A stretch of 64,000 nucleotides of DNA from Sulfurospirillum halorespirans DSM 13726 (GTDB taxonomy: Bacteria > Campylobacterota > Campylobacteria > Campylobacterales > Sulfurospirillaceae): contig NZ_CP017111.1 in the NCBI RefSeq assembly GCF_001723605.1, forward strand, positions 2,480,001-2,544,000, given 5' to 3'. The notes under the pieces were generated by a model, which saw only the letters and a list, made by a program, of their open reading frames with translations, ran no database searches and was not told where the DNA came from. Made by a program: the position numbers and the translations under genes. How positions within the stretch are numbered: position 1 is the first letter of the stretch; each line of letters opens with the position of its first letter. This document shows, piece by piece, positions 9,320 to 23,282 of the stretch.

Positions 9320-9766
9320 TTACGATTTAATTTTGTTTGCTTCTTTCAATTTCCAAAGCACCTTCACCATCGCCAAAGTATCGAGTTCACAGTACTTCAA
9401 CAACTGCTCATGCACTTTCATTTCCTCGTCCAAACTCTTTACATGTAAAGAGGCAAAGGTGTTCATGGCGTCTCCTCCGTTGTGGATGCCGTCAAAGATA
9501 AACGTTGCCTCGTAGATGTTTTCCACACCCTCATCAATATACGCTTGGGTCAGTCTCGCCATGCTTTTAAAATCGTGTGCATTAAAAGGTATCTCCCGCC
9601 CATCAGGAAACAATTCACACGCCAAAGCCCCCACGATATTACCCATCTCAAACCGCGCTTTGGCACTGGCACCCTGTGGGGTTAAAACCTCAGGTTTGTA
9701 CTTTTTTAGCCAGAGGGATTTTGGGCATTGAATAGCTCTGGTGTAGAGAGATTTTGAGAGGGTCAT
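9320..9766 (-). pseudogene. Internally deleted DUF2779-family gene
   Basis: The open frame is 148 residues, but intact DUF2779 proteins are about 450-500. Residues 1 to about 93 match the family N-terminus (SLYTRAIQCPKSLWLKKYKP, then YEATFIFDGI). From about residue 94 the sequence jumps to the family C-terminus (GGDAMNTFASL, LLKYCELDTLAMVKV), so the nuclease-like centre is missing without a frameshift. The cysteine-bearing termini remain. It is probably a decaying gene, though a stable small product cannot be excluded. Its neighbour shows the same kind of deletion. It carries one TTACATGTAA copy (LHVK). Confidence 0.75.
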
Positions 9767-9767
9767 G

Positions 9768-10100
9768 TTATTTATTTTTCACTTCTAACAACAGTTTGTC
9801 AAAATCACTCCTAAAAAGTCTATCTTGAACCACACGGTATTTTTCAAATTCGCTCAAAGCTTTTTCATCTGCTATCTTTTTAGTGATTTTTCCCGCATCG
9901 TGCAAAATTGCTCTATCATCAAACTCCAAAAAGGCATCTAAGTTATAGTATTTTGTGTTATAGGTTTTACCATCATTGGCAGTATGTTCCAAAATGGAAC
10001 TAACAGACTCTTCAAAAACTTTGACTTCGATGCTGTTTTCTCGACTTTGTGAGGTAAATATCAAAAATTCAGCTGCCCCGTTTCTTATGAGTTTATCCAT
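9768..10100 (-). pseudogene. Internally deleted RhuM-family gene
   Basis: The 110-residue frame joins three separated pieces of a RhuM protein: an N-terminal piece (LIRNGAAEFLIFTSQSREN), a middle piece (TANDGKTYNTKYYNLDA), and the C-terminal helix region (DDRAILHDAGKITKKIA, then EFEKYRVVQDRLFRSDFDK). The helix-turn-helix and the central body are missing, while the intact neighbour has 328 residues. The frame stays open and its start lies directly next to the neighbour's stop. I read it as a remnant of a second, divergent RhuM copy. RhuM function is unresolved; some members are described as virulence or DNA-binding proteins. Confidence 0.72.
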
Positions 10101-11087
10101 CTATCGCAACCTTTTTATATCTTCTTCGAGTTCTTTTAAACTTTGAAGTTTTTGCTCAACGTGTTCCATCTCTTTGTATTTGTTATACTCGATTTCACTT
10201 TTTGCTTTGGCGATTTCGTGGCTGATTTTTCCTGCATGACTTAGAAGTTCTCTGCCATTTAGAGAGATGACCATATCAAGCCTTCCAATCCAGTCTTTCA
10301 TGTACATTGGTATTTGTTGCATTGCCATCGTTTCAGCAAATGCCAAATATTGCTCGACTAAAAGACCCAAGAGTTTTATCTCTTCTTCATTCAAATAATT
10401 TTTGGCTATGCTGACATCTTTTTTGGTTACATTTTTGTCTTCTTTATCAAAAGAGTTCATTCCTAAAAGAGGTTTATTGACATCTACTCTATTGTGTATG
10501 AGTTCTGCGGCGGTTTGAGAAGATACCGCCCATAAAAGCTTATTTTGCACTATTTTAAAAAACTCTAATGTCTTTTCATCTTTTGGGTCATAGTCAATGC
10601 TTGTCATATAAATATCTTTGATTTTTTGATAAAAAAATCTCTCACTAAGTCGTATCTCTCTTAGGCGGTTTTGTAATTCATCAAAATAATCAGGCTTACC
10701 ATCAGGATTCTTAAGCCTCTCATCATCCATCACAAAACCCTTAACCATGTACTCGCTCAGGTTTTTGTTTGCCCACTGGCGGAACTGTGTCCCTCGTTTG
10801 CTTCGGACTCTAAAACCGATGGCTAAAATCATCGCCAAAGCGTAGTGGGAAACAGAGTAATTTTTCCCATCGCTGGCAGTTGTCAAGTATTCCTTGACAA
10901 CTGAATTTTGCGCTAACTCTTCCTCTTCAAAGATATTTTGAATATGCAAACTTATATTTTGTTTTGAGGTCGCAAAAAGTTCCGCCAACTGGCTCTGGCT
11001 CAGCCACGCCGTGCCGTCTTTGGTAAGAAGCGAAACAGAAGCTTTACCGTCTGCGGTGTTGTAGATGATGATGTTATTTTCGCTCAT
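10101..11087 (-). CDS. RhuM-family protein (intact)
   Basis: The 328-residue protein has an N-terminal winged-helix-like segment (WLSQSQLAELFATSKQNIS). The conserved RhuM core follows (TASDGKNYSVSHYALAMILA, RVRSKRGTQFRQWAN, YMVKGFVMDDERLK, REIRLSERFFYQKIKDIY), ending in a charged coiled tail. Length is normal for the family. RhuM genes are frequent in genomic and defence islands next to restriction or toxin genes, and their molecular role is not established. A palindrome TTGAAAAAATTTCAA lies 53 bp upstream of the start and recurs at the same distance from the GNAT gene at 14958. Confidence 0.85.
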   Translation of the reverse strand: MSENNIIIYNTADGKASVSLLTKDGTAWLSQSQLAELFATSKQNISLHIQNIFEEEELAQNSVVKEYLTTASDGKNYSVSHYALAMILAIGFRVRSKRGTQFRQWANKNLSEYMVKGFVMDDERLKNPDGKPDYFDELQNRLREIRLSERFFYQKIKDIYMTSIDYDPKDEKTLEFFKIVQNKLLWAVSSQTAAELIHNRVDVNKPLLGMNSFDKEDKNVTKKDVSIAKNYLNEEEIKLLGLLVEQYLAFAETMAMQQIPMYMKDWIGRLDMVISLNGRELLSHAGKISHEIAKAKSEIEYNKYKEMEHVEQKLQSLKELEEDIKRLR

Positions 11088-11139
11088 TGGTCAAGTTCCC
11101 TTTTTTGACAACTATTTTACTCTTCATTGTTCAAGTGCT

Positions 11140-11154
11140 TTGAAAAAATTTCAA
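11140..11154. promoter_or_regulatory. Palindromic operator candidate, copy A
   Basis: TTGAAA-AAA-TTTCAA is a perfect inverted repeat 53 bp before the RhuM start. The flanks show partial similarity to the second copy at 15012-15026, so the whole promoter region may be shared. This sits in the 156-bp gap between RhuM and the membrane-protein gene, which also holds one TTACATGTAA at 11205. Confidence 0.55.
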
Positions 11155-11243
11155 TGTGAAATGCTTTGTGGCGCAATGACCGTACGCCGAAGCTCATCGT
11201 TTTTTTACATGTAAGAAAAAAAGTAGTCTGTCACCTTTTTTTG

Positions 11244-12413
11244 TTAACTTCCGCAAATAGTTGGCAGATTTTGAATGAAAATTTTGATTGACTCAATCCA
11301 CTCCGTGGGTATATGGATAATAAAAAAATAAGCTAGCCCAAGAAAACCTATAGTAAAAATAACTACAACCATCTGATAAAGAGTTGTTAATAATTGTATA
11401 TTTTTTAATCTATCATCAATGCCATTTTTTTCTTTTTCTAACGTATTTAAATCAATACCAGATTTTTCTGCAATTTTTTTAAATACATTCTCAAATCTAT
11501 AAGCTAAATTAGCAATGCTCTTTTTTATTGTTAAAATCGAAAAAAGACTAAATAAACTCCAAATTATAATAATTGTACTAGCAATAAGTAATGGATATAT
11601 TTCTTTTTCAAATCTAAAGAGCATATAAATGTAAACTCCAAATTGGATAGGTAGTGAATTTACTTTTGATAAAAAGTCTGAAAGAGAATCTTGCAAAGTT
11701 TTAAAATATTTGTCTCTTTCTTCTTCTAACTTTGAATTGAACTCATCGAATGAAAACTTGTTTAAAAACAGCTTGTATTCTCTATCAGTTTTCTCAATAA
11801 TGAGTTCTAGCTTACTAAGTAAATAAAAAAATCTATCGTCAACTTCTTTTTTTTCTTCAACAGTTTTAATAATATTGTCTCTAAAAAAAGCAATATACTC
11901 CTTTGATAAATTACTCTCCATAGAATCATGTAGCTTTTTTAGGTTGTAACTATTTTCATAAAATTCCAATGGCTTATTTTTATAACCAACTTCAATTTTT
12001 CCATTCTTTTCTGAAAGTAAAAAATATTTTTTATTTACTTTATCATTAAAAGATATGACTTCCTTATCTTCTATTAGCTTTTTAATTTTCTGTGAATAGA
12101 TTAAATTTTCAAAAAATATATTACACTTTGCAGATTTATCATAAATTATTTCATCTTTTATTACGATGACTTCTTTATCTATATCTCCTTGAAAATGTTT
12201 TATACAATCAGCTTTAGTTTTATAAATAGAAATGGCTTGATTCGCCAAGTTTATACTAATGCCCTCAGCCAATTCATCATATTGAATGCCCAACTCAGTC
12301 AATAATGTTGTTTGACTATTTAAATCATTAGACAAAAAGGTTAATTCATCTGTTTCTACATCTGTGCAACTAGCCAATAAATCAACTATTTTTTTTATAG
12401 TTTCTGTTTTCAT
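11244..12413 (-). CDS. Membrane protein paired with NdpA-like gene (unrecognised)
   Basis: I do not recognise this 389-residue protein. Residues 1 to about 245 are soluble, charged and largely helical (for example KYFKTLQDSLSDFLSK). Two close hydrophobic segments (about 250-292, including PLLIASTIIIIWSLFSLFSI) and a third (about 342-370, QMVVVIFTIGFLGLAYFFII) follow, so the C-terminal third is membrane-embedded. Its start ATG overlaps the stop of the upstream NdpA-like gene as ATGA. A soluble domain tethered to the membrane and co-translated with a nucleoid-binding protein recalls the logic of two-gene membrane/DNA-binding defence systems such as Kiwa. That comparison is inference; no sequence match is claimed. 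Confidence 0.7.
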   Translation of the reverse strand: MKTETIKKIVDLLASCTDVETDELTFLSNDLNSQTTLLTELGIQYDELAEGISINLANQAISIYKTKADCIKHFQGDIDKEVIVIKDEIIYDKSAKCNIFFENLIYSQKIKKLIEDKEVISFNDKVNKKYFLLSEKNGKIEVGYKNKPLEFYENSYNLKKLHDSMESNLSKEYIAFFRDNIIKTVEEKKEVDDRFFYLLSKLELIIEKTDREYKLFLNKFSFDEFNSKLEEERDKYFKTLQDSLSDFLSKVNSLPIQFGVYIYMLFRFEKEIYPLLIASTIIIIWSLFSLFSILTIKKSIANLAYRFENVFKKIAEKSGIDLNTLEKEKNGIDDRLKNIQLLTTLYQMVVVIFTIGFLGLAYFFIIHIPTEWIESIKIFIQNLPTICGS

Positions 12414-13393
12414 TGCTCTATATCAATATCAGCATTAAGTGCGTTTAGAATTTGTTGTGCTAGTTCTGAAGAATGAATAACAACTTGTCCATCTATTATT
12501 TCAATTTCATTGGGGTTAAAACTACTTCTAGGTGCAGTAAGTTCAATATTATTTGCCTTGACAGAAACTTTATAAAAACGACCCAAATTAGCACCAGTTA
12601 ATTTAAATTCTCCATCTATATCAACATTATTCTGTTCACAGTATCTTGCAATATAATCTTCATCTTGAAAGATATATGTACTTAAATCTCTTAAATTAAC
12701 AACTCTTCCGTTGCTACTTTTTGCATAATCGAAAATAGTTCTTTTTAAACTATCTCTTGTCATTCCAGCTAGTAATTCTATTTGGTTTGCTATATTATAT
12801 AAAGCTTGTGCATCTTTATTTTCTTGCTTTGGATCATCTAGCCCTATCCAAGCTTCAAAATAACTTGAAATATCTGTATTACCTCGAACTAAAGATATAT
12901 ATCTATCTTCTGAATTACTGTTTAAAATAGATAAATTAATTTTTGCACCCATTGCAAAGTGCTCAACATCTAAATATTGAGTAGAGTCCAAATTCCAACT
13001 TCCACCACTTGGAATCAGTTTAGAACCTTCTGTATTTCTTACTAAAAAAATCGCTAAAAATTCTTGTGTTGTTGTATATTTAGCAAAAACAAGATAACCA
13101 CCTTTAGCTGGAGAGATCCCATCAATTTTATTTTTTAACTTTTTTGTTAAAACATCTGAAAAGTTTACAATATCAATAGCACTATAGTCTTGAAAATCCT
13201 CTTGAAAACCATCATCTGAAAATTTAGCTCTTTTGAGCGTTTTTTTTGAAAATGATTCTTCCAAAGAAGTAACTATTTTGAGTACATATCCATTAGTAGC
13301 ATCTAATGTAGTATTTGACAAATATAACGTCGCCGTATTTGTAGTATTAGCTTCCTTTTTTATTTCATGGATAATAACAGAACTTAGTGTCAT
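12410..13393 (-). CDS. NdpA/YejK-type nucleoid-associated protein
   Basis: The 327-residue protein shows the NdpA (37-kDa nucleoid-associated protein) pattern: an N-terminal IIHEIKKE segment, KGGYLVFAKYTTTQEFLAIFLVRN in the middle, then LDVEHFAMGAKINLSIL and RYISLVRGNTDISSYFEAWIG. E. coli YejK binds the nucleoid, and phage proteins related to it inhibit gyrase. This copy sits in an accessory block, overlaps a membrane-protein gene by ATGA, and uses a more AT-rich sequence than the surrounding core genes. This suggests transfer and a specialised role, possibly sensing or binding invading DNA. The function in this pair is inferred. Confidence 0.8.
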   Translation of the reverse strand: MTLSSVIIHEIKKEANTTNTATLYLSNTTLDATNGYVLKIVTSLEESFSKKTLKRAKFSDDGFQEDFQDYSAIDIVNFSDVLTKKLKNKIDGISPAKGGYLVFAKYTTTQEFLAIFLVRNTEGSKLIPSGGSWNLDSTQYLDVEHFAMGAKINLSILNSNSEDRYISLVRGNTDISSYFEAWIGLDDPKQENKDAQALYNIANQIELLAGMTRDSLKRTIFDYAKSSNGRVVNLRDLSTYIFQDEDYIARYCEQNNVDIDGEFKLTGANLGRFYKVSVKANNIELTAPRSSFNPNEIEIIDGQVVIHSSELAQQILNALNADIDIEQ

Positions 13394-13553
13394 TGGATTT
13401 CCTTTTTGTTAGTTTAGTCTAGTTTTCTACATTAAAAGCTTCTGCAAATTTTCAAGATTTATATAACTATATGCGAATAAAACATTTCAACTTTATGGAA
13501 ATAGACTTTTCATTCATCTACTAAATTCTGTCTTATGTTTTTACTATTTTCCC
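13394..13553. other. AT-rich gap upstream of the NdpA pair
   Basis: About 160 bp of AT-rich sequence separate the ASCH gene stop from the NdpA-like start. It must hold the promoter of the NdpA/membrane pair, but I see no clear boxes or repeats. An AAAGGAAATCC ribosome site precedes the NdpA start. Confidence 0.5.
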
Positions 13554-13928
13554 TCAAACTACATATTTAAATGACTGTGGGGCAGTAAAATTATCGTACA
13601 TTTCATGAGGGCATCTAGGTGTGTCGTATTTGTTTAAAGATTTTATCTTTATAGCATAGCCTTTTTCTCTGTCTGTAAAATAACTATCGTAAAAATCAGC
13701 ACTAATGCCTGAGAAATTTTTTGTCTTTTCCCATAGCGTTTTTGGGTGTTCTTCAAGTATGGCTTCAATGTCAAACTCTCCCACTATCTTCCCCACGGGC
13801 ATGGTAGAGTATATGACGACTGATTTAATGCCTTTTCGTTTAAAAATACTTTTTCTATACTCAAATTTTTTATTACCGTTAAAAATTTCTTCTACAAATT
13901 GGGGCTTAATCGATAATAATACTTTCAT
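13554..13928 (-). CDS. ASCH-domain protein
   Basis: The 124-residue protein begins MKVLLSIKPQFVEEIFNGNKKFEYRKS-like and continues VVIYSTMPVGKIVGEF, the signature of the ASCH fold, a PUA-like beta barrel predicted to bind RNA or modified nucleotides. Its start lies inside the end of the upstream GNAT gene (23-bp overlap), so the two are coupled. ASCH proteins near mobile elements often accompany toxin or modification genes. A cytoplasmic nucleic-acid-binding or nucleoside-processing role is likely; the precise substrate is unknown. Confidence 0.82.
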   Translation of the reverse strand: MKVLLSIKPQFVEEIFNGNKKFEYRKSIFKRKGIKSVVIYSTMPVGKIVGEFDIEAILEEHPKTLWEKTKNFSGISADFYDSYFTDREKGYAIKIKSLNKYDTPRCPHEMYDNFTAPQSFKYVV

Positions 13929-14958
13929 CTACTTCTCCAGCTTTTATGATTTTTTTAAATTGTTCATGTGTTACACTAAAAACACCCCAATACTCAGGTG
14001 TTATACCAAAACTGTCAATCATTTGACCGTTTGTAACGCGTCTTTTAAATGCGACATTGTATGTCATCTTGATAATAAAAGGATACTTCTTTGTTCTATA
14101 GAAGCTTCTTAACTCATCGACTGAAAATATACTATACGGCTCACAATACTTTAAAAATTTCTCTTCTGTACTAAAGTCATTTATAGTTAAAACTTCTTCC
14201 ACTACACAAATAGAGGTTACAACAGACCTATAGCGTGCGGCACCTTGTCCATCATTTGTACGATATATCAATAAAATATCACCCTTATGAAAGTTTTGAA
14301 CAGCTTGCATGGCGCAAATATATATTTTATGGATGCTGTTTGTGTGAGATACATCTTTGAGTATATCTACACTTTCATTGTTTAAGATAGAATCTGAAAA
14401 GAGTTTTGTATGAAATTGTGGAAGAATCGACAATCCGTATATATGTTTATTCTCAGTTTGCACAATAGGGTAATCTTTTAAAATATCATTTTTGAGATTA
14501 AAAAGATTTTTGAGCAAAACCAACTCTTTACCATTTGATGTTGTCTTTGTACCGTATTCTGAAAAACCAAAAGTTTTAAGTAAACTTATTAGTGGCTGAT
14601 GTTTATCAAATATCGTTACATAAATTTCATCTATTTTCTTTGCTACAGCAACATCAAATATCTTTTTTACAAATCTTTCTCCAAGTTTTGTACCATGTGC
14701 ATCAATCTTAAAAGTGCCAACTTTTAATCTTTTCTTTTCTGTAAATTTTGGAACGATAGCTTCATCAATCTCATCTTCAATTTTAAGATACAAAAATGCC
14801 ATTAGCTTAGTATTTTCATACAATGTGAACGCATGTTTGTCTTCTATTGCTTTTTTAGTGAACCAACTACTAAATTCAGAATAATCTTCTTTTAAAGAGT
14901 CAAAGAACGCATCATCTAAATCAATATCTTTAAAATACTGTGATTGAATATTTGCCAT
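13906..14958 (-). CDS. GNAT acetyltransferase with C-terminal PUA/EVE-like domain
   Basis: The 350-residue protein has two parts. Residues 1 to about 150 resemble a GNAT N-acetyltransferase (KLMAFLYLKIEDE, LKVGTFKIDAHGTKLGERFV, LLKTFGFSEYG). Residues from about 165 to 350 resemble a PUA-like domain (KIYICAMQAVQNFHKGDILLIYR, SVVTSICVVEEV, FIIKMTYNVAFKRRVTNGQMI, PEYWGVFSVTHEQF). It overlaps the ASCH gene, so two PUA-fold proteins and an acetyltransferase are made together. Such a combination could acetylate and recognise an RNA or tRNA target, perhaps as a toxin-antitoxin-like unit. This is inference. Confidence 0.72.
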   Translation of the reverse strand: MANIQSQYFKDIDLDDAFFDSLKEDYSEFSSWFTKKAIEDKHAFTLYENTKLMAFLYLKIEDEIDEAIVPKFTEKKRLKVGTFKIDAHGTKLGERFVKKIFDVAVAKKIDEIYVTIFDKHQPLISLLKTFGFSEYGTKTTSNGKELVLLKNLFNLKNDILKDYPIVQTENKHIYGLSILPQFHTKLFSDSILNNESVDILKDVSHTNSIHKIYICAMQAVQNFHKGDILLIYRTNDGQGAARYRSVVTSICVVEEVLTINDFSTEEKFLKYCEPYSIFSVDELRSFYRTKKYPFIIKMTYNVAFKRRVTNGQMIDSFGITPEYWGVFSVTHEQFKKIIKAGEVDESIIID

Positions 14959-15355
14959 TGTAAGCCCCTTTTTTCATTTTGATATATGTTAATGTAAATT
15001 GTGAATTACCTTTGAAAAAATTTCAATTTGACATACTTTACAACGCTCTCAAACATATCTTTTATTTCTATCTCGTTGAAAAGGTACTAAATAAGATTTT
15101 AAGATAAGTAAAATGTATCACATAAATATGAAGTTTTGAAGTGCACAAGCAATTGCCTGTATTATTGAGAGTGTCTAAATCGTTAAAGCCTAAATGCGTG
15201 TCCGAAAAATGAATCAGTTTCACGGTGCTTCTTTATGATTAGTTAGACTTTTTCAATGGGTTATGAAAGAAGTCTGTTCGATTATAACCAATATTATTAC
15301 AGATTAAGAGAAATTTATGATAAAAAAGGAAAGATTTGTGGAGGTTGGAAAAAAA
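14959..15355. other. Intergenic region upstream of the GNAT gene
   Basis: The stretch holds the GNAT promoter region with palindrome copy B. The rest is AT-rich sequence in which I see no convincing gene. A 66-codon plus-strand frame (15256-15456) runs into the structured repeat element. It has no ribosome site and the frame is not kept in the second copy of that element, so I do not call it coding. Confidence 0.6.
15012..15026. promoter_or_regulatory. Palindromic operator candidate, copy B
   Basis: TTGAAA-AAA-TTTCAA is identical to copy A at 11140-11154 and lies 54 bp before the GNAT start, almost the same spacing as copy A before RhuM. Partial similarity extends about 25 bp on the distal side. 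Confidence 0.55.
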
Positions 15356-15500
15356 GAAACGCTCGAACCGGGCAATTCGAGCGTTGGTATTACAAGTTGT
15401 TAGGTTCTACACAAAAAGGAGGTATGCGTCTTACATGTAAAAGTATAGGGCTTTAGTCTAAATGGGATGTGAACCGTTTGTAAATGAATCATAAATTTTT
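15348..15500 (+). ncRNA. Structured repeat element, copy 1 (candidate ncRNA or attachment-like repeat)
   Basis: A 30-bp block at 15356-15385 is identical to 18976-19005 and forms a perfect 10-bp stem, AACGCTCGAA with TTCGAGCGTT, around the loop CCGGGCAA. After a 24-25-base spacer both copies share CACAAAAAGGAGGT (here 15410-15423), AAAGTATAGG (15440-15449) and a diverged tail containing GAACC and GTAAAT. Conserved blocks, variable spacers and the broken reading frame in copy 2 point to a structured RNA or DNA element rather than a protein. A TTACATGTAA (15431-15440) replaces TTGGTAGTGA of copy 2. Confidence 0.55.
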
Positions 15501-15543
15501 TTAACACATCATTTTTGGTTGATTTTATTCGCCAAATTTATTG

Positions 15544-15822
15544 CTAGAAAGAACTTTTTGAGAGCCTAAGATCACAGTTTGAAAGTCTCTCATCAAAAAT
15601 AACATTCATCGTATCAACATCTAAAACTTCCATCAGTTGCATAAAAAATACAAAGCTAAATCCGCCTCTGTCGATTTTTCGGCGCAAAGAAGCTTCGGTG
15701 GTATCAATATAACCGTGGGCTTTAAAAAGCTCAGTGAGTTTGACCATATCTAGCCCTCTTTTTTTAATTTCGCCTTTGATGCTGAGAATCGCAAGTTTTG
15801 TAAAATCGTCAGTTGTAACCAT
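15544..15822 (-). CDS. DUF6471-type helix-turn-helix regulator
   Basis: The 92-residue protein matches the short DUF6471 pattern: KLAILSIKGEIKKRGLD, then TEASLRRKIDRGGFSFVFFMQLMEVL. This is a lambda-repressor-like helix-turn-helix without additional domains. It is transcribed divergently from the PspA/YqiJ/flotillin operon, and two near-identical 16-bp inverted repeats lie in the shared 123-bp promoter region, where it probably binds to control both sides. This regulatory role is inferred from position. A good ribosome site (AGGAGAA) precedes the ATG. Confidence 0.72.
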   Translation of the reverse strand: MVTTDDFTKLAILSIKGEIKKRGLDMVKLTELFKAHGYIDTTEASLRRKIDRGGFSFVFFMQLMEVLDVDTMNVIFDERLSNCDLRLSKSSF

Positions 15823-15837
15823 GTATTCTCCTATAAT

Positions 15838-15873
15838 AGTCTCATTTAGGACATATTTGTCTCATTAGAGACA
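15838..15873. promoter_or_regulatory. Twin operator between DUF6471 gene and pspA-like operon
   Basis: AGTCTCATTTAGGACA (15838-15853) and TGTCTCATTAGAGACA (15858-15873) are two versions of the same inverted repeat with arms TGTCTC/GAGACA, set 20 bp apart, which is two helical turns. They abut the -35 box of the plus-strand promoter, so a bound dimer pair could repress or activate it. Confidence 0.65.
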
Positions 15874-15881
15874 TTTAAGTC

Positions 15882-15910
15882 TTGACATTATACTGTATTT
15901 TCCTTATAAT
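15882..15910 (+). promoter_or_regulatory. Consensus sigma-70 promoter of the PspA/flotillin operon
   Basis: TTGACA (15882-15887), a 17-bp spacer and TATAAT (15905-15910) form a perfect consensus promoter 36 bp before the start of the PspA-like gene. Such a full -35 box is unusual for Campylobacterota, and a promoter this strong would need a repressor, in line with the twin operator just upstream. Confidence 0.8.
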
Positions 15911-15945
15911 TTTATCGAATCTATTCAAAACTTAAAGGAGACGCT

Positions 15946-16584
15946 ATGTCAGAGAAGTTTTATTCGAGAGTCAGTCGCATCGTTGCGGGCAGTCTTAATG
16001 CCATTATTGATGCCGCTGAGGGTATTTCACCAGAGATTATTGCGAAGCAGAGTATTCGTGAGATTGAAAAAGTAGCAAGTGACATCAAGCTTGAACTGGG
16101 CAAAGATGTCGTGAAGCAAAAGCTTATTAAGGAGCGAATAGATTCTTACAACGCTGAGCACAATAAGCTTCTAGCTCAAGTCAAAATTGCGCTTAAAGAA
16201 GACAGAGAAGACCTTGCGGAAGCAGGACTTGCAGAACAAATTTCAATCGAAGAAAAAATCAAAGCAAACCAAGTGCAGATGGACGCACTTCAAAAAGAGA
16301 TAACCACCTATCAGGAGTACCTTGATAAACTCTCTGCCAAGAAAAAAGATATGGACAGTGAGCTTAAAGCTCTTTCGAGCAAACCAAATGCCATTGATTC
16401 CCTTGCAACAAAAGATAAACTTGACAAAGCAGAAGAGGCGTTTTACCGTGTCATGGGCGATGAATTAAGAGAAGCGGACAAAACAAGCAAAGACACCTCC
16501 AAACTCAATGAACTTGATGAATTGGCTAAAAACAATCAAGTTAGTGAGCGCTTAGCTGCACTAAAGGCTACGTTGAATGTTTGA
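15946..16584 (+). CDS. PspA/IM30-family membrane-stress protein
   Basis: The 212-residue protein is almost entirely coiled coil and starts with an amphipathic helix (FYSRVSRIVAGSLNAIIDAAE), followed by QSIREIEK and repeated heptads, as in PspA/IM30 proteins. These assemble on the inner face of the cytoplasmic membrane and maintain its integrity under stress. The first gene of a three-gene operon, it overlaps the next by 8 bp. An AAGGAGA ribosome site lies before the ATG. The PspA-YqiJ-flotillin arrangement is a known association, which supports the call. Confidence 0.88.
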   Translation: MSEKFYSRVSRIVAGSLNAIIDAAEGISPEIIAKQSIREIEKVASDIKLELGKDVVKQKLIKERIDSYNAEHNKLLAQVKIALKEDREDLAEAGLAEQISIEEKIKANQVQMDALQKEITTYQEYLDKLSAKKKDMDSELKALSSKPNAIDSLATKDKLDKAEEAFYRVMGDELREADKTSKDTSKLNELDELAKNNQVSERLAALKATLNV

Positions 16585-17227
16585 TATGTTTTGGCTCCCA
16601 GAACTGCAACCTTTCACAATCGCATTGATTATAATGCTTGTGATTGCCTTGCTTGAGGGCGTTGGTCTATTGCTAGGTGTGGGATTATCAACACTGTTTG
16701 ATTCTCTTTTGCCCGATATCGACTTTGACATCAATGAACCTAGTGGTGCTTTAACACATTTTATGGGGTGGATGAATATCGGGCGTGTGCCATTGTTGGC
16801 TATTATCATCTGCTTTTTAACATCTTTTGGTGCGATTGGATATTTAATACAATCCATTCTATATGGCGTCATGGGAATCTTTCTTCCCTCTGCCCTTGCC
16901 ATAGTGCTCTCTTTTGCGATGGCACTGCCTGCAACGAGGATAACCACCAATGCAATTCGCAAAGTGATTCCCTCCGATGAAAGTTCGGCTCTTTCGCAAG
17001 AAGACCTTATAGGCTCAGCGGCAACGATTACGCTAGGGCGTGCAACAAAAGGTTCTCCAGCAGAGGCTAAGTATGTGGATAAATACGAACAAGCGCACTA
17101 TTTTATGGTTGAGCCAGAAGAGGGTGGCATTGAGTTTAAAGCGGGTGAGACGGTGATTTTAGCGAAACAATCACCCAAAGGCTTTTATGCTATTAAAAAT
17201 ACACTATCCCAATTGGAAAAGGAATAA
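16577..17227 (+). CDS. YqiJ/NfeD-like membrane protein with OB-fold
   Basis: The 216-residue protein has about three membrane helices in the first 120 residues (for example FTIALIIMLVIALLEGVGLL, and FLPSALAIVLSFAMALP). A C-terminal beta domain (DLIGSAATITLGRA, HYFMVEPEEGG, GETVILAKQS) is typical of YqiJ/NfeD-type OB folds. NfeD-like proteins are obligate operon partners of flotillins and probably anchor or scaffold them. It overlaps the PspA-like gene by 8 bp and ends 3 bp before the flotillin gene. Confidence 0.83.
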   Translation: MFDMFWLPELQPFTIALIIMLVIALLEGVGLLLGVGLSTLFDSLLPDIDFDINEPSGALTHFMGWMNIGRVPLLAIIICFLTSFGAIGYLIQSILYGVMGIFLPSALAIVLSFAMALPATRITTNAIRKVIPSDESSALSQEDLIGSAATITLGRATKGSPAEAKYVDKYEQAHYFMVEPEEGGIEFKAGETVILAKQSPKGFYAIKNTLSQLEKE

Positions 17228-17230
17228 ACG

Positions 17231-18886
17231 ATGATTAATGATACGATTATAATGATAGCGGGGGCAGCCATCATAGCACTTATAACGATTGCCTTGATTG
17301 TCGCAAGACTTTATAAACGCTCATCAAAAGAGATGGCATTTGTACGCACAGGGCTTGGCGGTGAAAAAGTGGTGCTTAATGGTGGTGCTATCGTTCTTCC
17401 TATCTTTCATGAAATTGCATTGGTCAATATGCAAACGTTGCGCCTTGAGGTGCGAAGAGAACAGTCCCAAGCATTGATTACGGGTGATCGTATGCGTGTG
17501 GATGTGCAAGCAGAATTTTACGTACGTGTTAAACCAGAGATTAGCTCCATTGCTCAAGCAGCACAAGCATTGGGACAAAGAACACTCAACCCCGATATGC
17601 TGAAAGAGTTAATTGAAGGTAAGTTCGTTGATGCCTTGCGTGCGGTTGCGGCTGAAATGGAGATGATACAACTGCATGAAAAGCGTTCCGATTTTGTTCA
17701 AAAAGTTCAACAAGCAGTTGCAGAGGACTTACTTAAAAATGGTCTTGAATTAGAATCCGTTTCACTCACAGGACTTGATCAAACGGGCAAAGAGCATTTT
17801 AATCCTAACAATGCCTTTGATGCTGAGGGTTTACTCCGCCTTACGCAGACTATTGAAGAGCGCAATAAACTTCGCAACGATATTGAGCGCGACACGGCTG
17901 TTCAGATTCAACAAAAAAATCTTCAAACAACCAAAGAAGCACTCAATCTTCAGCAAGATGAGGAATATGCCAGATTAGAACAATCACGAGAGATTGAAAT
18001 GAAAAAGGCACAACAAGAAGCTGACATCAAGATAGAACAATCCAATCAAAACAAAAAATCTGAGACCGTTAAACTCTCTGCAAACCAAGAGATTGAGCAA
18101 GCGCGCATCATTACTGAGCGAAAAATTGAAGAACAACATATCGAAAAAGTTAAAACCATTAAGCTTGCGGAACAAGACAAAGAAATTAGCATCAGCAACA
18201 AATCCAAAGAAGAGTCTGAAGCAAAAGCGGTAGCAGATGAAGCACGTGCAAAAGCCGTAGAAGCAGAGGAAAAAATCAATACGGCTCGTCAAGTTGCAAT
18301 TGCCAACAGAAACAAAGACGTTGAGATCATTAAGGCAAATGAAGAAGCGGAAAAAGATGCGGTTACGATTAAAGTGGGTGCTCAAGCAGAGAAAATCGCT
18401 GCACAAGATCGAGCTGAAGCGATTAAACTTGAAGCACAAGGTAAAGCAGATGCTGTTAGAATCCAAGCAGAAGCCGATGAAAAGCGTTTTGCCGTTCAAG
18501 CCGAAGGTGAAAAAGCCATCAATGAAGCCAACAATGTTTTATCAGCAGAACAAGTGAAAATGCGCATCCAAATAGCGCTTATGCAAGCATTACCCGCTAT
18601 TATCGAGCAAAGTGTTAAACCGATGGAACATATTGATTCTATTAAAATTATTGATGTTGGGAACATGTCAAATGGTGCATCAAATACATCAGGTGGTTCC
18701 ACAAGTATAGGAGAAAGTGATTTTTCCGATAATATGGTCAAAGCTGCGATGAAATATCAGGTTCAAAAACCTTTGGTTGATAAATTATTAAACGACATTG
18801 GTATCACCGATATTGGCAATCTTTCAGACATCGTCATGTCGCACAAAAACATTCAAGAGCCTCTACAGCCAAATAATCCATCTTAA
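17231..18886 (+). CDS. YqiK-type flotillin
   Basis: The 551-residue protein has an N-terminal membrane hairpin (about residues 6-25), an SPFH domain (VRTGLGGEKVVLNGGAIVLP, EFYVRVKPE), a long coiled coil rich in A, E and K, and a C-terminal flotillin tail (QIALMQALPAIIEQSVKP). YqiK-type flotillins organise ordered membrane microdomains and are co-expressed with YqiJ and often PspA. The long, low-complexity antisense frame opposite the coiled coil is an artefact. The start has an AAAGGAATAAACG ribosome site. Confidence 0.9.
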   Translation: MINDTIIMIAGAAIIALITIALIVARLYKRSSKEMAFVRTGLGGEKVVLNGGAIVLPIFHEIALVNMQTLRLEVRREQSQALITGDRMRVDVQAEFYVRVKPEISSIAQAAQALGQRTLNPDMLKELIEGKFVDALRAVAAEMEMIQLHEKRSDFVQKVQQAVAEDLLKNGLELESVSLTGLDQTGKEHFNPNNAFDAEGLLRLTQTIEERNKLRNDIERDTAVQIQQKNLQTTKEALNLQQDEEYARLEQSREIEMKKAQQEADIKIEQSNQNKKSETVKLSANQEIEQARIITERKIEEQHIEKVKTIKLAEQDKEISISNKSKEESEAKAVADEARAKAVEAEEKINTARQVAIANRNKDVEIIKANEEAEKDAVTIKVGAQAEKIAAQDRAEAIKLEAQGKADAVRIQAEADEKRFAVQAEGEKAINEANNVLSAEQVKMRIQIALMQALPAIIEQSVKPMEHIDSIKIIDVGNMSNGASNTSGGSTSIGESDFSDNMVKAAMKYQVQKPLVDKLLNDIGITDIGNLSDIVMSHKNIQEPLQPNNPS

Positions 18887-18969
18887 GTAATATAGGGGCG
18901 CTTTTCATAGCGTCCTAATTCTTATAATTGATAAAGTGCGATTTTCACGAGGGTATTTTTGGGGAAGTA

Positions 18970-19120
18970 AAAAAGGAAACGCTCGAACCGGGCAATTCGA
19001 GCGTTTTGTATGAAAAATTGATACATTATTCACAAAAAGGAGGTTTTTGTCTTGGTAGTGAAAGTATAGGCTTCTTGTCTAAACAAGAGATGAACCATTG
19101 GTAAATAGATCCTAAATGGT
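18970..19120 (+). ncRNA. Structured repeat element, copy 2
   Basis: This is the second copy of the element at 15348-15500, in the same orientation. Blocks 18976-19005 (perfect 10-bp stem), 19031-19044 and 19061-19070 are identical to copy 1, and spacers differ by at most one base in length. Here the stem is followed by TTTTG and any reading frame across it stops at once. The two copies bracket the regulator/PspA/YqiJ/flotillin module exactly. Together with the downstream leader of the kinase gene it fills the 317-bp gap before 19204. Confidence 0.55.
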
Positions 19121-19203
19121 GCACATTTCTCACTTCTTATTCTTTTTATGACCTGCGAAGGAGTATACTTATTTCGAGTATTTGTTTTAAGGAGTTATAG
19201 CAA

Positions 19204-19836
19204 ATGAAAGAGCCTTCACATACGATCATCACGATCAGTCGCCAAATTGGAAGTGGTGGTGCGTTTATTGGACAAAAATTGGCAAAAGAACTGGGCATGA
19301 GTTATGTTGATCGAGAGATCATCACGCAAGCGGCGAAAGAGTTTTCCCTTGTAGAGGAAGACCTTGAATCTTTGGATGAAAAAACCCCTTCATTTTGGCA
19401 ATGCTTCTTTCAATCAAGCATTTGCAGTCCTGACGTTTACCTTCCTCCGCAACTCTTTGTACCAACGGAAGAGGCGATTTTTAAAGTTGAGACAAAGATT
19501 ATCAAACAAATTGCAAAAGATCGCTCTGCTATTATCATCGGGCGATGTGGCTCACATATTTTGCGTGACAACCCCAATCACCTGAGTATTTTTTTACATG
19601 CAGACGCTACTTTCCGCAAAAAACGTATCGAAGAGCTTTACAAGGTTTCAGGAAAAGAAGCGGAGAGAATGATCGAGCAAAGCGATGGTGAGCGAGCGCG
19701 TTACCATCAGCTCTTAGTGGAAAAACCGTGGAGTGATGCAAGCCAGTACGATCTGTGCATCAACACCTCTAAAATAGGGATTGACAGCGCCATCGCGCTG
19801 ATTCGTGAGACAATAGAGCGTTACCAAAACCGCTAA
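19204..19836 (+). CDS. Cytidylate-kinase-like P-loop protein
   Basis: The 210-residue protein belongs to the cytidylate kinase-like family: ITISRQIGSGGAFIGQKLA (P-loop variant), YVDREII near residues 36-42, IIIGRCGSHIL in the middle and RYHQ near the lid. It lacks the insertions of classical Cmk, and family members are of uncertain substrate. It starts at ATG 19204 after a GGAG site and a possible TATACT box at 19164. It stands alone, ending in a shared bidirectional terminator with the convergent gene. Confidence 0.82.
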   Translation: MKEPSHTIITISRQIGSGGAFIGQKLAKELGMSYVDREIITQAAKEFSLVEEDLESLDEKTPSFWQCFFQSSICSPDVYLPPQLFVPTEEAIFKVETKIIKQIAKDRSAIIIGRCGSHILRDNPNHLSIFLHADATFRKKRIEELYKVSGKEAERMIEQSDGERARYHQLLVEKPWSDASQYDLCINTSKIGIDSAIALIRETIERYQNR

Positions 19837-19858
19837 AAGAGGAGCTTATGCCTCTTTT
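19835..19858. terminator. Bidirectional terminator
   Basis: AAAAGAGG (19835-19842), an 8-base loop and CCTCTTTT (19851-19858) form a symmetric stem with A and T tracts. It lies between the stops of the convergent kinase-like gene and the 117-residue membrane-protein gene. Confidence 0.65.
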
Positions 19859-20199
19859 GGCTTTGGTTTGCGTGTTCGCTTTGGCTTCGTTTCAGAGGCG
19901 ACGACTGTTTCACTCGTGCTTTCAGCCTTGTGAGCCGCTTTGACACTGCTTTTTTTAGACGGCTGATAAAGCATGTGATGCCAGAGTGAAAAACCAACCA
20001 GCGCCACACCTGCACCAATGTGAAGGTTTTTCATAACCTTAGACTTCATCCCAAAAGAGGTGCCGATCACTATCGCCATTGAAGTGGTCATGCCGATCTT
20101 TGCAACCTCTTTTTTTGTGTCTAAGTCCCATGTCTTAAAGCTTGGTAGTTTTAGCTCTTTTTTTGTCAAATTTTCTTTTTGCATTTTTTCCTGTCTCAT
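19846..20199 (-). CDS. Small membrane protein with basic Pro/Lys tail
   Basis: This 117-residue protein has two hydrophobic segments (about residues 34-50 and 58-76, including LHIGAGVALVGFSLWHHMLY). A C-terminal tail is rich in K, S, E and P (KPKRTRKPKPKEA). I do not recognise the family. A tandem helix pair with histidines in the second helix might hold a cofactor. It sits behind a Fur-box-like site (20267) with the small 39-codon frame just upstream, beside the P1B ATPase operon, so an iron-related membrane role is plausible but inferred. Confidence 0.7.
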   Translation of the reverse strand: MRQEKMQKENLTKKELKLPSFKTWDLDTKKEVAKIGMTTSMAIVIGTSFGMKSKVMKNLHIGAGVALVGFSLWHHMLYQPSKKSSVKAAHKAESTSETVVASETKPKRTRKPKPKEA

Positions 20200-20254
20200 A
20201 CGTTAATGCCAAGGTTAAAACCGCGGCAATTCCAAGGGGAAAGAGAAGAGGCAT
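20135..20254 (-). CDS. Possible 39-residue single-helix membrane peptide
   Basis: A short frame from ATG 20254 to TAA 20135 encodes a hydrophobic N-terminal helix (MPLLFPLGIAAVLTLALTY) and a strongly basic tail (KNAKRKFDKKRAK). AAAGGA lies 6 bases before the ATG and a Fur-box-like repeat about 13 bp upstream. It overlaps the first 22 codons of the 117-residue protein in another frame. The layout recalls the YtxH-like small proteins of the adjacent operon. Coding is likely but unproven. Confidence 0.45.
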   Translation of the reverse strand: MPLLFPLGIAAVLTLALTYETGKNAKRKFDKKRAKTTKL

Positions 20255-20266
20255 GTAAATCCTTTT

Positions 20267-20283
20267 ATGATATAAGTTATCAT
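20267..20283. promoter_or_regulatory. Fur-box-like site upstream of the 39/117-residue genes
   Basis: ATGATA-TAAGT-TATCAT is a perfect 6-5-6 inverted repeat. The same arms recur exactly at 30516 and 43948 before TonB receptor genes. Confidence 0.7.
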
Positions 20284-20313
20284 AATTATAAAACCTCTCC
20301 CCTAAGACTTAGC

Positions 20314-22413
20314 TTAGCTTTTTTCTATACGAATTTTTTGCATGGAATTGAGTAATAATCCAATCGTCGTTCCATTATGCAAAAAGGCTGTTTTTACAGG
20401 ACTGAGTAAGCCTACAGCCGCACCCATCAATATAAAACTGTTAATACCCACGGTGGCATTAAAGTTACTCTGAATGCGCGCCATCGTTTTATTTGCCAAG
20501 ATTTTGGCTTCCACAACCGCATCGATGTCATCTTTGAGCAAGCTAATATCCGCCGTTGCTTTGGCGATGTCAGCACCTTTGTACATGCTGATGCCGACAT
20601 TGGCGTTCATAAGTGCGGGGGCGTCATTGATGCCATCGCCTATAAACGCGACATGCTTGCCGCTTTCTTTGAGCGCTTGCACGATGTTGGATTTATCGGT
20701 CGGTAGCAGTCTTGCATACACGGTGTCGATGCCCAGCTCTTTGGCTAAGGCTTGGGCTTTATCTTCCACGTCACCTGTGAGCATGACGATCTCTTTTGCC
20801 CCTAATTTTCTTAGTTTCAAAAGGGCTTCTTTGGCATTGGCACGCACACGGTCTATCATACCGATGGTGCCTAAAAGTTTGTTATCATACGCGATGTAGA
20901 GCAAGATTTTGCCATTTTCCAAACACTTCTCGATCTTGGCTTCGTGCTCACTAAAAGAGACCTGCTCATCTTCTTCCAAGAAGTGACGACTTCCGATGAT
21001 CGCCTCTTTGCCATTGATCTGTGTGCGAACGCCATGCGCAACGATAAACTCTACCTCATCATGGTGCATGTGCACAAATCCACGCTCTTTCGCCGCTTTG
21101 ACGACGGCTTCAGCGACAGGGTGGAAGTAGTGCTCTTCCGCACTTGCCGTGAGATTTAAAATCGCATCTTTACTCCACTCTTTATCAAACGAGTAAATCT
21201 CGACCACTTCAAGCTCACCGTGCGTCAAAGTGCCTGTTTTATCGAAAATAAATGTATCGACATGCGAAAGCGCTTCTAAAGCTTTCGCCCCTTTGATAAG
21301 GATGCCATGATGCCCTGCGATGGAAAGCGAATTTTTAAACGCCACAGGCGTAGCGAGTTTCAGTGCACACGAATAGTCTGCTTGTAAAACCGCGGCAACA
21401 CTTGCCATATCACGACGTATCAGATACGAAAGTCCTGCCATCCCTAAGGTAATGGGAACGAGTTTATCGGCTAAGTGCGTGGCTTTGAGACCAATGGCAG
21501 ACTTTTCATCGAGGGAGCTTTTGATGTAGTGTCTGATGCGTTGTGTTGCCGTGTCATCTCCGACTTGCTCCGCCCAGATGCGAATGCGCCCTGATTCGAC
21601 AATGGTACCTGAGATAACCCGTCCACCACGCTCTTTTTTCACAGGCTCCGCTTCACCCGTCATCGAAACTTGATTGATCGACGCCATTCCATCGATGATA
21701 TGCCCATCAATCGGAATCGTATCGCCAGCACCTACAATAACGATGTCACCGACTTTCACCTCAGCGGTGCTGATGCGTTTTTCGGTTCGTTTGCCCTTCT
21801 CTTCCACTTCGATCCACGCCGCTTCCACATTGGGTTTAGCCAGTTCTTTGATGAGATCATCGCTTTTGTGTACCGTGGTCTCTTCGATATATTCGCCAAT
21901 TTCAAGCATGAGATTGGTGCTATTTGCCGCACTGTAATCGCTTCGTGCCAAAGAGACGCCCACCGCCATCGCTTCAAGGACTTTAGAGGTTAATCCTTCG
22001 CTAAAGAGCTCAAAAAGTCCCTCCTTGAGCAAAGGAATGCTCGCAAGGGTACTCACGGCAAGTTTGAGTCGCGGTTGGGGAATGAATGGCTGAAATGCCA
22101 GTGCCATACCTGAGCGTACAATGCCTTTCATGCTAGGCGCTTCGTCGTGATCATTGAAGCATGCGTTGATCGAAGCATCGCAGATTTGGTAGTGCCCAAT
22201 GTCAAGCTGTTGGAGGTGTTTTAAAAGCGCCTTTTCATCCAAATGCTCACCTTCAAATACAACAGAGCCTATTTTAGCATTGACGCGCACTTCACGCACA
22301 CCTTCAATCTTTTTAAGGTCGTTTGCAAGAGCGTGCGCATTGATCTGCTTAAGCGCAGGAGTCACATAGCGCAGTCGCTGGGATGTTTGATGAATCAGGC
22401 GTGTTTTGTGCAT
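20314..22413 (-). CDS. P1B-type metal ATPase with SCA motif (ferrosome FezB-like)
   Basis: The 699-residue ATPase has an HMA-like N-terminus (about 1-80) with no CxxC. Instead it has IHQTSQRLRY and an IGS turn, closely matching the separate 105-residue protein of the operon. Key motifs are TGEAEP (252-257), DKTGTLT (391-397), MLTGD and GDGINDAPALMNA. At the usual CPC position in the membrane it has SCALKLATP (SCA at 348-350). This class is, as I recall, P1B-6, the class linked to ferrosome iron-storage vesicles. With ferritin-like and small glycine-rich membrane proteins upstream, I infer iron pumping into a vesicle or the periplasm. Ni, Co or Mn export is the alternative. Confidence 0.82.
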   Translation of the reverse strand: MHKTRLIHQTSQRLRYVTPALKQINAHALANDLKKIEGVREVRVNAKIGSVVFEGEHLDEKALLKHLQQLDIGHYQICDASINACFNDHDEAPSMKGIVRSGMALAFQPFIPQPRLKLAVSTLASIPLLKEGLFELFSEGLTSKVLEAMAVGVSLARSDYSAANSTNLMLEIGEYIEETTVHKSDDLIKELAKPNVEAAWIEVEEKGKRTEKRISTAEVKVGDIVIVGAGDTIPIDGHIIDGMASINQVSMTGEAEPVKKERGGRVISGTIVESGRIRIWAEQVGDDTATQRIRHYIKSSLDEKSAIGLKATHLADKLVPITLGMAGLSYLIRRDMASVAAVLQADYSCALKLATPVAFKNSLSIAGHHGILIKGAKALEALSHVDTFIFDKTGTLTHGELEVVEIYSFDKEWSKDAILNLTASAEEHYFHPVAEAVVKAAKERGFVHMHHDEVEFIVAHGVRTQINGKEAIIGSRHFLEEDEQVSFSEHEAKIEKCLENGKILLYIAYDNKLLGTIGMIDRVRANAKEALLKLRKLGAKEIVMLTGDVEDKAQALAKELGIDTVYARLLPTDKSNIVQALKESGKHVAFIGDGINDAPALMNANVGISMYKGADIAKATADISLLKDDIDAVVEAKILANKTMARIQSNFNATVGINSFILMGAAVGLLSPVKTAFLHNGTTIGLLLNSMQKIRIEKS

Positions 22414-22417
22414 AAAA

Positions 22418-22720
22418 TTATGCTTCTTTAGCCGCTAACTCAGCTTTAGCATCTTCAAAACGTTCTTTCATCTCTTCGATGCCTGCTTGGAACATTTCAG
22501 TGCCTTTGGCAATCGTTTTGAAAAGATTTTTCTGCGCTTTTTCATTGGTTAGCAAATAAGCACCTACCGCGCCGATGAGGGCACCCATGACAAACTGTTT
22601 GGTGTTAAATGCTCCAAAAAGATGTTCAGGATTACTGAGCATTCCGTTTTCGTTTTTCGCCTCAGTGGCAGGCTCGCCCCCAATGTAGGGGTTTTTGTCC
22701 AGTGAAGATAATAGTTCCAT
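22418..22720 (-). CDS. Small glycine-zipper membrane protein (YtxH-like), 100 aa
   Basis: The protein has one hydrophobic, glycine-patterned helix, FVMGALIGAVGAYLL (about residues 43-57), between a polar N-terminal half and a charged amphipathic helix (FQAGIEEMKERFEDAKAEL). The GALIGAVGA motif recurs in the C-terminal anchor of the ferritin-like protein of the same operon and, loosely, in the 68-residue protein. It overlaps the upstream gene by one base and ends 4 bp before the ATPase start. A structural role in a membrane vesicle is inferred. Confidence 0.72.
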   Translation of the reverse strand: MELLSSLDKNPYIGGEPATEAKNENGMLSNPEHLFGAFNTKQFVMGALIGAVGAYLLTNEKAQKNLFKTIAKGTEMFQAGIEEMKERFEDAKAELAAKEA

Positions 22721-23079
22721 TATTTTGTTTCCTCTTCGGTTGTTGATACGTCAATCGTTTGTGTGCATGTGCATGTTTTTTCATACAGTTTTTCAACACC
22801 ATAAATGCCTGCAACGCCCACAGTAAGGGAACCTAAAAGTCCAAGCCAGCTGTTACGTCCAAGTGCATTGGCTGCTGCAATCGCACTGCCCGTGGCGATG
22901 CCACCTTGAACGGTTAGTTTAAGGCTCTGTTTGATCGCCTCATCTTTGCTAAGCTCTGATTGTTTGTACTTCGTGTACGAAAGAGCCGTTGCTACCATGC
23001 CAGCCGCCAACGCACCACTGATCATATTGCCAGCGACACTGCGAGGGGTTCCTGTATTGATCGTGATTTTAGGGGTCAT
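22720..23079 (-). CDS. Glycine-rich membrane protein, 119 aa
   Basis: I do not recognise a family. The sequence has two or three weakly hydrophobic, Gly/Ala-rich segments (VAGNMISGALAAGMVATAL, GGIATGSAIAAANALG, WLGLLGSLTVGVAGIYGVEK). A short tail follows with CTCTQTIDV, whose two cysteines could bind metal. The composition resembles small magnetosome or ferrosome membrane proteins in style only. Its start overlaps the stop of the 68-residue gene as ATGA and it overlaps the next gene by one base, so translation of the series is tightly coupled. Confidence 0.7.
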   Translation of the reverse strand: MTPKITINTGTPRSVAGNMISGALAAGMVATALSYTKYKQSELSKDEAIKQSLKLTVQGGIATGSAIAAANALGRNSWLGLLGSLTVGVAGIYGVEKLYEKTCTCTQTIDVSTTEEETK

Positions 23080-23282
23080 TGTACCTCCTCTTTTGTTTTT
23101 ACATGTAAAGCTTTTTTGGACTTAATGCACTCGATGGTTCCATCAACGCTTTTCTTCATCTCTTCCGCGACCTCTTTGGCTTTGCAAACGCCTTGTTCAA
23201 GACCTTCTTTAAGCTCTTTTTTCTTAGTAAATGCAATCACAGCAGCGGCACCTGCAAGGGCGCCTACGATAAATGGTAACAT
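23076..23282 (-). CDS. Small YtxH-like membrane protein, 68 aa
   Basis: The N-terminal helix MLPFIVGALAGAAAVIAF is followed by a highly charged helix (KKKELKEGLEQGV, KAKEVAEEMKKS) and a short tail with a cysteine. This is a typical single-pass YtxH-like layout. It lies 30 bp after the ferritin-like gene with an AAGGAGAAAACC ribosome site. A TTACATGTAA copy is read as LHVK near the end. It is one of three consecutive small membrane proteins in the operon. Confidence 0.72.
   Translation of the reverse strand: MLPFIVGALAGAAAVIAFTKKKELKEGLEQGVCKAKEVAEEMKKSVDGTIECIKSKKALHVKTKEEVQ

Follow-up and report, generated by a model that had tools for sequence, protein, structure and literature searches.

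An NdpA-like protein and a phrog_5023-family membrane protein as a candidate antiphage defence pair in Sulfurospirillum halorespirans

Introduction

YejK is a nucleoid protein present in many bacteria. The chromosomal YejK/NdpA of Escherichia coli (PDB 9be2) has its Pfam family and, as judged from a model, its fold in common with the NdpA-like protein studied here. E. coli yejK, unlike the gene described below, stands as one core gene flanked by rplY and yejL and lacks a membrane partner.

A defence system of similar design is Kiwa, in which membrane-embedded KwaA tetramers are combined with dimers of KwaB, and these bind DNA that has been injected but do not cut it (PMC12904381). A second point of comparison comes from the DefensePredictor screen (Science 2026; PMC13092281). 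According to that report, 42 E. coli defence units were validated, and one protective unit carries a YejK nucleoid-associated domain that was new to defence; TM and coiled-coil elements are listed in the figure key. No other paper tying YejK to phage defence was found in a literature search.

The window, that is, the whole 64,000-nucleotide stretch of S. halorespirans DNA that was analysed, contains an NdpA-like gene followed by a gene for a membrane protein, which an earlier note had put forward as a candidate defence pair. The computational analysis of this pair and of its homologues is presented here.

Results

The two-gene unit

The features of the locus are listed in Table 1. Both reading frames of the pair were whole and shared four bases in an ATGA stop/start overlap, so that the translational coupling described in the earlier note was borne out. 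Close spacing is general among the homologues: the genes overlapped in 32 of the 37 representative pairs and lay within 20 nt of each other in the other five, with no gap exceeding 20 nt. A promoter scan returned sites that were no commoner than expected by chance.

Table 1. Coordinates of the candidate pair and of the neighbouring features in the window.
Feature	Position	Strand	Basis or remark
RhuM C-terminal fragment	9768-10100	minus	PF13310 E=4e-8, profile 193-248
RhuM-family protein, PADLOC candidate PDC-S05	10101-11087	minus	PF13310 E=9e-102; PDC-S05 E=5e-130
Intergenic repeat, left border of cassette	11105-11243		Repeat search, 55 nt, 75% to right copy
phrog_5023-family membrane protein, gene 2 of pair	11244-12413	minus	389 aa, frame intact
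ATGA stop/start overlap, translational coupling	12410-12413	minus	Sequence: TCAT on + strand
NdpA-like (NA37/YejK-family) predicted DNA-binding protein, gene 1 of pair	12410-13393	minus	327 aa, frame intact
ASCH-domain protein, PADLOC candidate PDC-M11B	13554-13928	minus	Domain and PADLOC matches; island member
GNAT-type protein, PADLOC candidate PDC-M11A	13906-14958	minus	E=2.5e-144; overlaps ASCH gene
Diverged repeat copy, right border of cassette	14985-15070		Search of the same genome: 90% over 30 nt

The NdpA-like protein

The first gene product matched PF04245 (NA37) over profile positions 1-298 of 325 (E=4e-33; 115.6 bits against a gathering threshold of 24.6) and phrog_3767 (E=1e-37), and it was recovered by a leave-one-out HMM of the family (E=4e-34). 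Its score of 97 bits against the NCBIfam YejK equivalog PRK00378 was below the cut-off of 341, and orthology to YejK was ruled out on this basis. The predicted fold is that of YejK: the model (pLDDT 82.7) matched 9be2 in Foldseek with E=1.3e-16, the sole significant PDB match, and was aligned to it by VIA over 313 residues (Z=21.1) with an rmsd of 15.2, which is taken to reflect domain placement. The NdpA-type identity that had been proposed thus stood on both the family match and the modelled fold.

In the family tree, the window sequence (end branch of 3.33 substitutions per site) and that of another genome of the same order, G241, were on very long branches, and their placement was unsure. 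The unpaired YejK relatives, namely E. coli yejK, a Vibrio phage protein and plasmid proteins of Vibrio and Pseudomonas, clustered with one paired Methylobacter protein (support 97/96).

The membrane partner

The second gene product matched phrog_5023 (E=1.2e-10), and had no credible match among Pfam, NCBIfam, PADLOC or PDB sequences. When it was used alone in tblastn searches of phages and plasmids and in pattern scans nothing was found, because its sequence is too divergent; its relatives were reached through the genes adjoining NdpA homologues. When the window sequences were left out of its construction, an HMM still recovered the partner from the window (8e-14) and that from G241 (1e-10), with no further match among the open reading frames of the window. 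The match to phrog_5023 extended to all 37 representatives of the partner, including the window protein, and at a further locus (L008) it was found within a 524-aa frame (E=1e-5).

Hydropathy analysis of the window protein gave strong peaks centred on residues 284 and 357 of 389, and a weaker segment at about 255-270. Two of the three membrane helices claimed earlier were therefore clear and the first was weak, for which the three-helix label is still fair. The single cytoplasmic block of 245 residues, also claimed, was not borne out by the modelled structure of a homologue. The partner was modelled from a better-conserved member, L021 (pLDDT 88.6), instead of the window copy. The model comprised an alpha/beta domain up to residue 225 or so, followed by long helices with two clear and one weak membrane segments; the first membrane segment was preceded by one long coil, and another coil lay between the later two membrane helices. 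No PDB or BFVD structure matched this model with E<0.001. The VIA matches were helical bundles of a generic kind, with pore-forming toxins and MukF among them.

Co-conservation and distribution

A search for the partner only, with phrog_5023 relatives as queries, yielded 76 loci (29 viral and 47 genomic). An NdpA gene was present directly upstream at 72 of the 74 testable loci; the four other loci were two cut by contig ends and two with truncated partners (Cupriavidus, one shared fragment). A second partner query gave six further loci, all six paired with NdpA. The distances among NdpA proteins paralleled those among their partners (Mantel r=0.909, n=37; maximum of 0.413 in 2000 permutations). 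The two genes are thus co-conserved, and the lack of co-conservation that would have spoken against the earlier note was not what the co-occurrence search found. The finding is more general than that note could tell: the window pair belongs, as a distant member, to a mobile two-gene module that is widespread.

Both genes are rare within the class: of 397 genomes, 3 gave a match to the NdpA-like protein and 2 a match to the membrane protein, with one false match in each case; two weak class-level matches (L003 and L005) were discarded as unrelated proteins. In G241 an NdpA-like gene is followed by a gene whose 324-aa product has membrane helices in its C-terminal part. Further afield, the plasmid-borne NdpA genes of Pseudoalteromonas, Methylobacter and Acinetobacter each directly precede a gene for an unannotated protein of 377-401 aa, and the same arrangement was found in Sinorhizobium phage phi2LM21, two faecal phage contigs and a Klebsiella phage.

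Defence genes near homologous pairs

For 25 genomic pairs, the 135 genes lying no more than 5 kb away were compared with PADLOC models. The matches included Hachiman HamB, one ZorA2, type I methylases and others, and defence neighbours were counted at about 6 of the 25 loci, a raw count that includes putative readings of the sequence. At L064, HamB adjoins the pair with a probable HamA between them. A type I methylase lies near the pair at L095, where HsdS is probably encoded as well; at L094 the match was to an AbiEi-type protein. The ZorA2 match was assigned by sequence to a putative ZorA-like protein at L059. By our own reading of the sequences, putative HsdM-like and SEFIR/TIR-like proteins are encoded near the pair at L069 and a putative Csb2-like protein at L057. 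Location in mobile elements and defence islands, a criterion for antiphage systems, was therefore found for the homologous pairs.

The gene island and its borders

The pair and the ASCH/GNAT genes lie in an island with a GC content of 25-30%. The GC content of the pair itself is 0.272, compared with a mean of 0.430 (sd 0.043) for the window, and only 3 of 619 segments of the same size were equally low, in agreement with the AT-richness noticed earlier. Profile matches also confirmed the flanks as they had been described, with RhuM and its remnants on one side and the ASCH/GNAT genes on the other. Beside the RhuM fragments, a 148-aa ORF (9320-9766) resembles a truncated remnant and had no family match.

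A 55-nt repeat at 11113 and 14985 (75% identical) brackets exactly the pair and the ASCH/GNAT block. In the sister genome G397 the right flank is 97% identical and is followed by different small genes in place of the window block, and these small genes are also separated by repeat copies of about 150 bp (L109, 161-298 and 605-753). The presence of the same repeats around different genes suggests that the locus exchanges gene cassettes. Identification as integron cassettes was rejected, as integrase matches in the window genome and in G397 were only below the curated cut-off. A short ORF region at 15256-15456 was observed to recur as DNA in G397, at C251, C291, C7 and C219.

The palindrome TTACATGTAA occurs 31 times in the 64 kb against 0.11 expected, and is a strong genome signature; its sites include 6107, 9439, 11205 and 15431. 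On the assumption that this is the signature motif which the earlier note reported as lacking from the pair, its absence was confirmed for 11215-15430. As a longer gap exists at 15440-23099, this absence is a weak point.

Comparison with Kiwa and with the published YejK-domain unit

A genuine ATGA-coupled KwaA/KwaB locus (L125:1432-3008) from the same order was used as the reference for Kiwa. This locus belongs to another family of the order and adjoins type I restriction genes. The hhalign probability was 0.4% both for the NdpA family against true KwaB and for the partner family against true KwaA. KwaB (PF16162/DUF4868) was not matched by Pfam or PADLOC in any of the 37 NdpA members, and PADLOC KwaA matched one of the 37 partners, with E=0.006 only, which was not the window partner. 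The matches listed for the NdpA model included none of the KwaB structures in the PDB (9mrx, 9mtn, 9nyu and 9o0i), an absence that is no proof. Membership of Kiwa was ruled out by the profile comparisons.

What the pair shares with Kiwa is two overlapping genes, a membrane protein with a DNA-binding protein (predicted in the present case), and mobile defence contexts. It differs in that the gene order is reversed, the membrane gene coming second in the window, in the want of any sequence or profile relationship to KwaA/KwaB, and in its predicted YejK-fold DNA-binding part and the large cytoplasmic domain on the partner. From the lack of profile resemblance, the window pair at most works like Kiwa and is not one; of the parallel drawn in the earlier note, the analogy of design was retained, and no membership follows from the profiles or from Foldseek, which found YejK only.

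The protective YejK-domain unit is probably an NdpA and phrog_5023 pair, as likened by the domain and the figure key alone. The features in common are the YejK/NA37 domain, the location in E. coli accessory genomes, and TM and coiled-coil elements like those of the partner. The published unit is from E. coli, whereas the window copy comes from a bacterium of a distant class and is very divergent.

Discussion

The proposal that this is a candidate defence pair is well supported by the co-conservation of the two genes, by the prophage, plasmid and defence-gene contexts of the homologues and by the published YejK-domain unit. On these grounds, it is likely that the pair has a role in antiphage defence.

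For the way in which it might act, the reading that we tentatively prefer, at somewhat less than even confidence, is that of a horizontally moving two-component antiphage module in which a membrane-tethered NdpA-like protein captures incoming DNA. In the cytoplasm, the NdpA-like protein, with its predicted YejK fold, would bind double-stranded DNA. Its phrog_5023 partner would be made in the same translational unit, probably in a fixed ratio to it; seated in the inner membrane, with the alpha/beta domain projecting into the cytoplasm, this partner may retain the NdpA-like protein at the membrane. Injection of a phage genome or perturbation of the membrane might serve as the trigger, upon which the tethered protein would coat and sequester the incoming DNA, and replication or expression would be blocked. 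Three points of this scheme we infer: that the window copy binds DNA, that the two proteins are in physical contact, and that events follow in this order.

An arrangement of sensor and membrane effector ranks close behind DNA capture, although on its own it is rather unlikely. The NdpA-like protein would sense phage DNA or a disturbed nucleoid; upon its release, or a signal from it, the partner would open a pore or depolarise the membrane, and the infected cell would be killed or arrested (abortive defence). Conservation in the partner family peaked in the run into the first membrane helix and in the helix itself (mean of 3.2 bits, compared with 1.9 for the cytoplasmic domain), and this segment carries an invariant proline and conserved D/Q/Q/K residues; as it is better conserved than the cytoplasmic domain, a membrane effector fits as well as a tether. 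Long helical hairpins stand beside the membrane segments in the partner model, and overlapping genes are usual for sensor-effector and toxin-antitoxin pairs. Against this, the partner fold had no match to a known effector and its helical part resembles generic bundles only. SLATT or other named 2TM effectors had no Pfam support in the 37 members. Several conserved residues are also lost in the window copy, which is about 15% identical to its relatives: among the near-invariant positions, H195, K249, K264, Q289 and N303 (L021 numbering) and others are replaced or gapped, and Y213, F220, S221, D246 and P255 are kept. This strong divergence is the chief reservation about the preferred reading as well, for with so many conserved residues lost the activity of the window partner may differ from that of the family.

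The pair might instead do housekeeping work for a temperate phage or plasmid: by anchoring the DNA of the element to the membrane it would help to maintain or partition that DNA or would provide superinfection immunity, the chromosomal copies being remnants. Many homologous pairs do sit in prophages and plasmids, and YejK-type proteins are nucleoid proteins. We consider this improbable, as the prophage pair behaves as an accessory insert beside lysis and not replication genes. A DNA search of 5426 E. coli genomes with the Klebsiella pair as query found it in 35 of them, in three versions: a lambdoid-prophage version (14 genomes) placed between the Q antiterminator and the holin and on the opposite strand, a version in Mu-like prophages (19 genomes) that adjoins the holin, and a third in 2 genomes. 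Several chromosomal pairs adjoin Hachiman, Zorya-like or restriction genes, and the window copy shares its gene cassette with defence candidates, which also argues against a housekeeping role.

Least probable of all is that the family is defensive and that the window copy has decayed or been repurposed, since the long NdpA end branch, the many replaced partner residues and the RhuM remnants nearby, which indicate regional decay, are set against two intact frames with retained ATGA coupling and against a comparably divergent pair (L006) that persists with the same gene order in another family of the same order.

DNA capture by a tethered NdpA-like protein thus stays the preferred reading. A broader and more doubtful proposal, which we hold to be possible, is that the module represents an unnamed and broadly spread immune system, in which a membrane protein with a new fold took over a YejK-fold nucleoid protein so that incoming DNA would be seized at the envelope, independently of Kiwa. 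The E. coli versions of the pair are small and laboratory-ready for testing. If the paired YejK relatives are membrane-tied antiphage proteins, a host nucleoid protein would have been turned into an immune component, and the pair would be a second and unrelated case of the Kiwa-type design of a membrane-tethered DNA binder; phrog_5023, a family of phage proteins without an assigned function, would also gain one.
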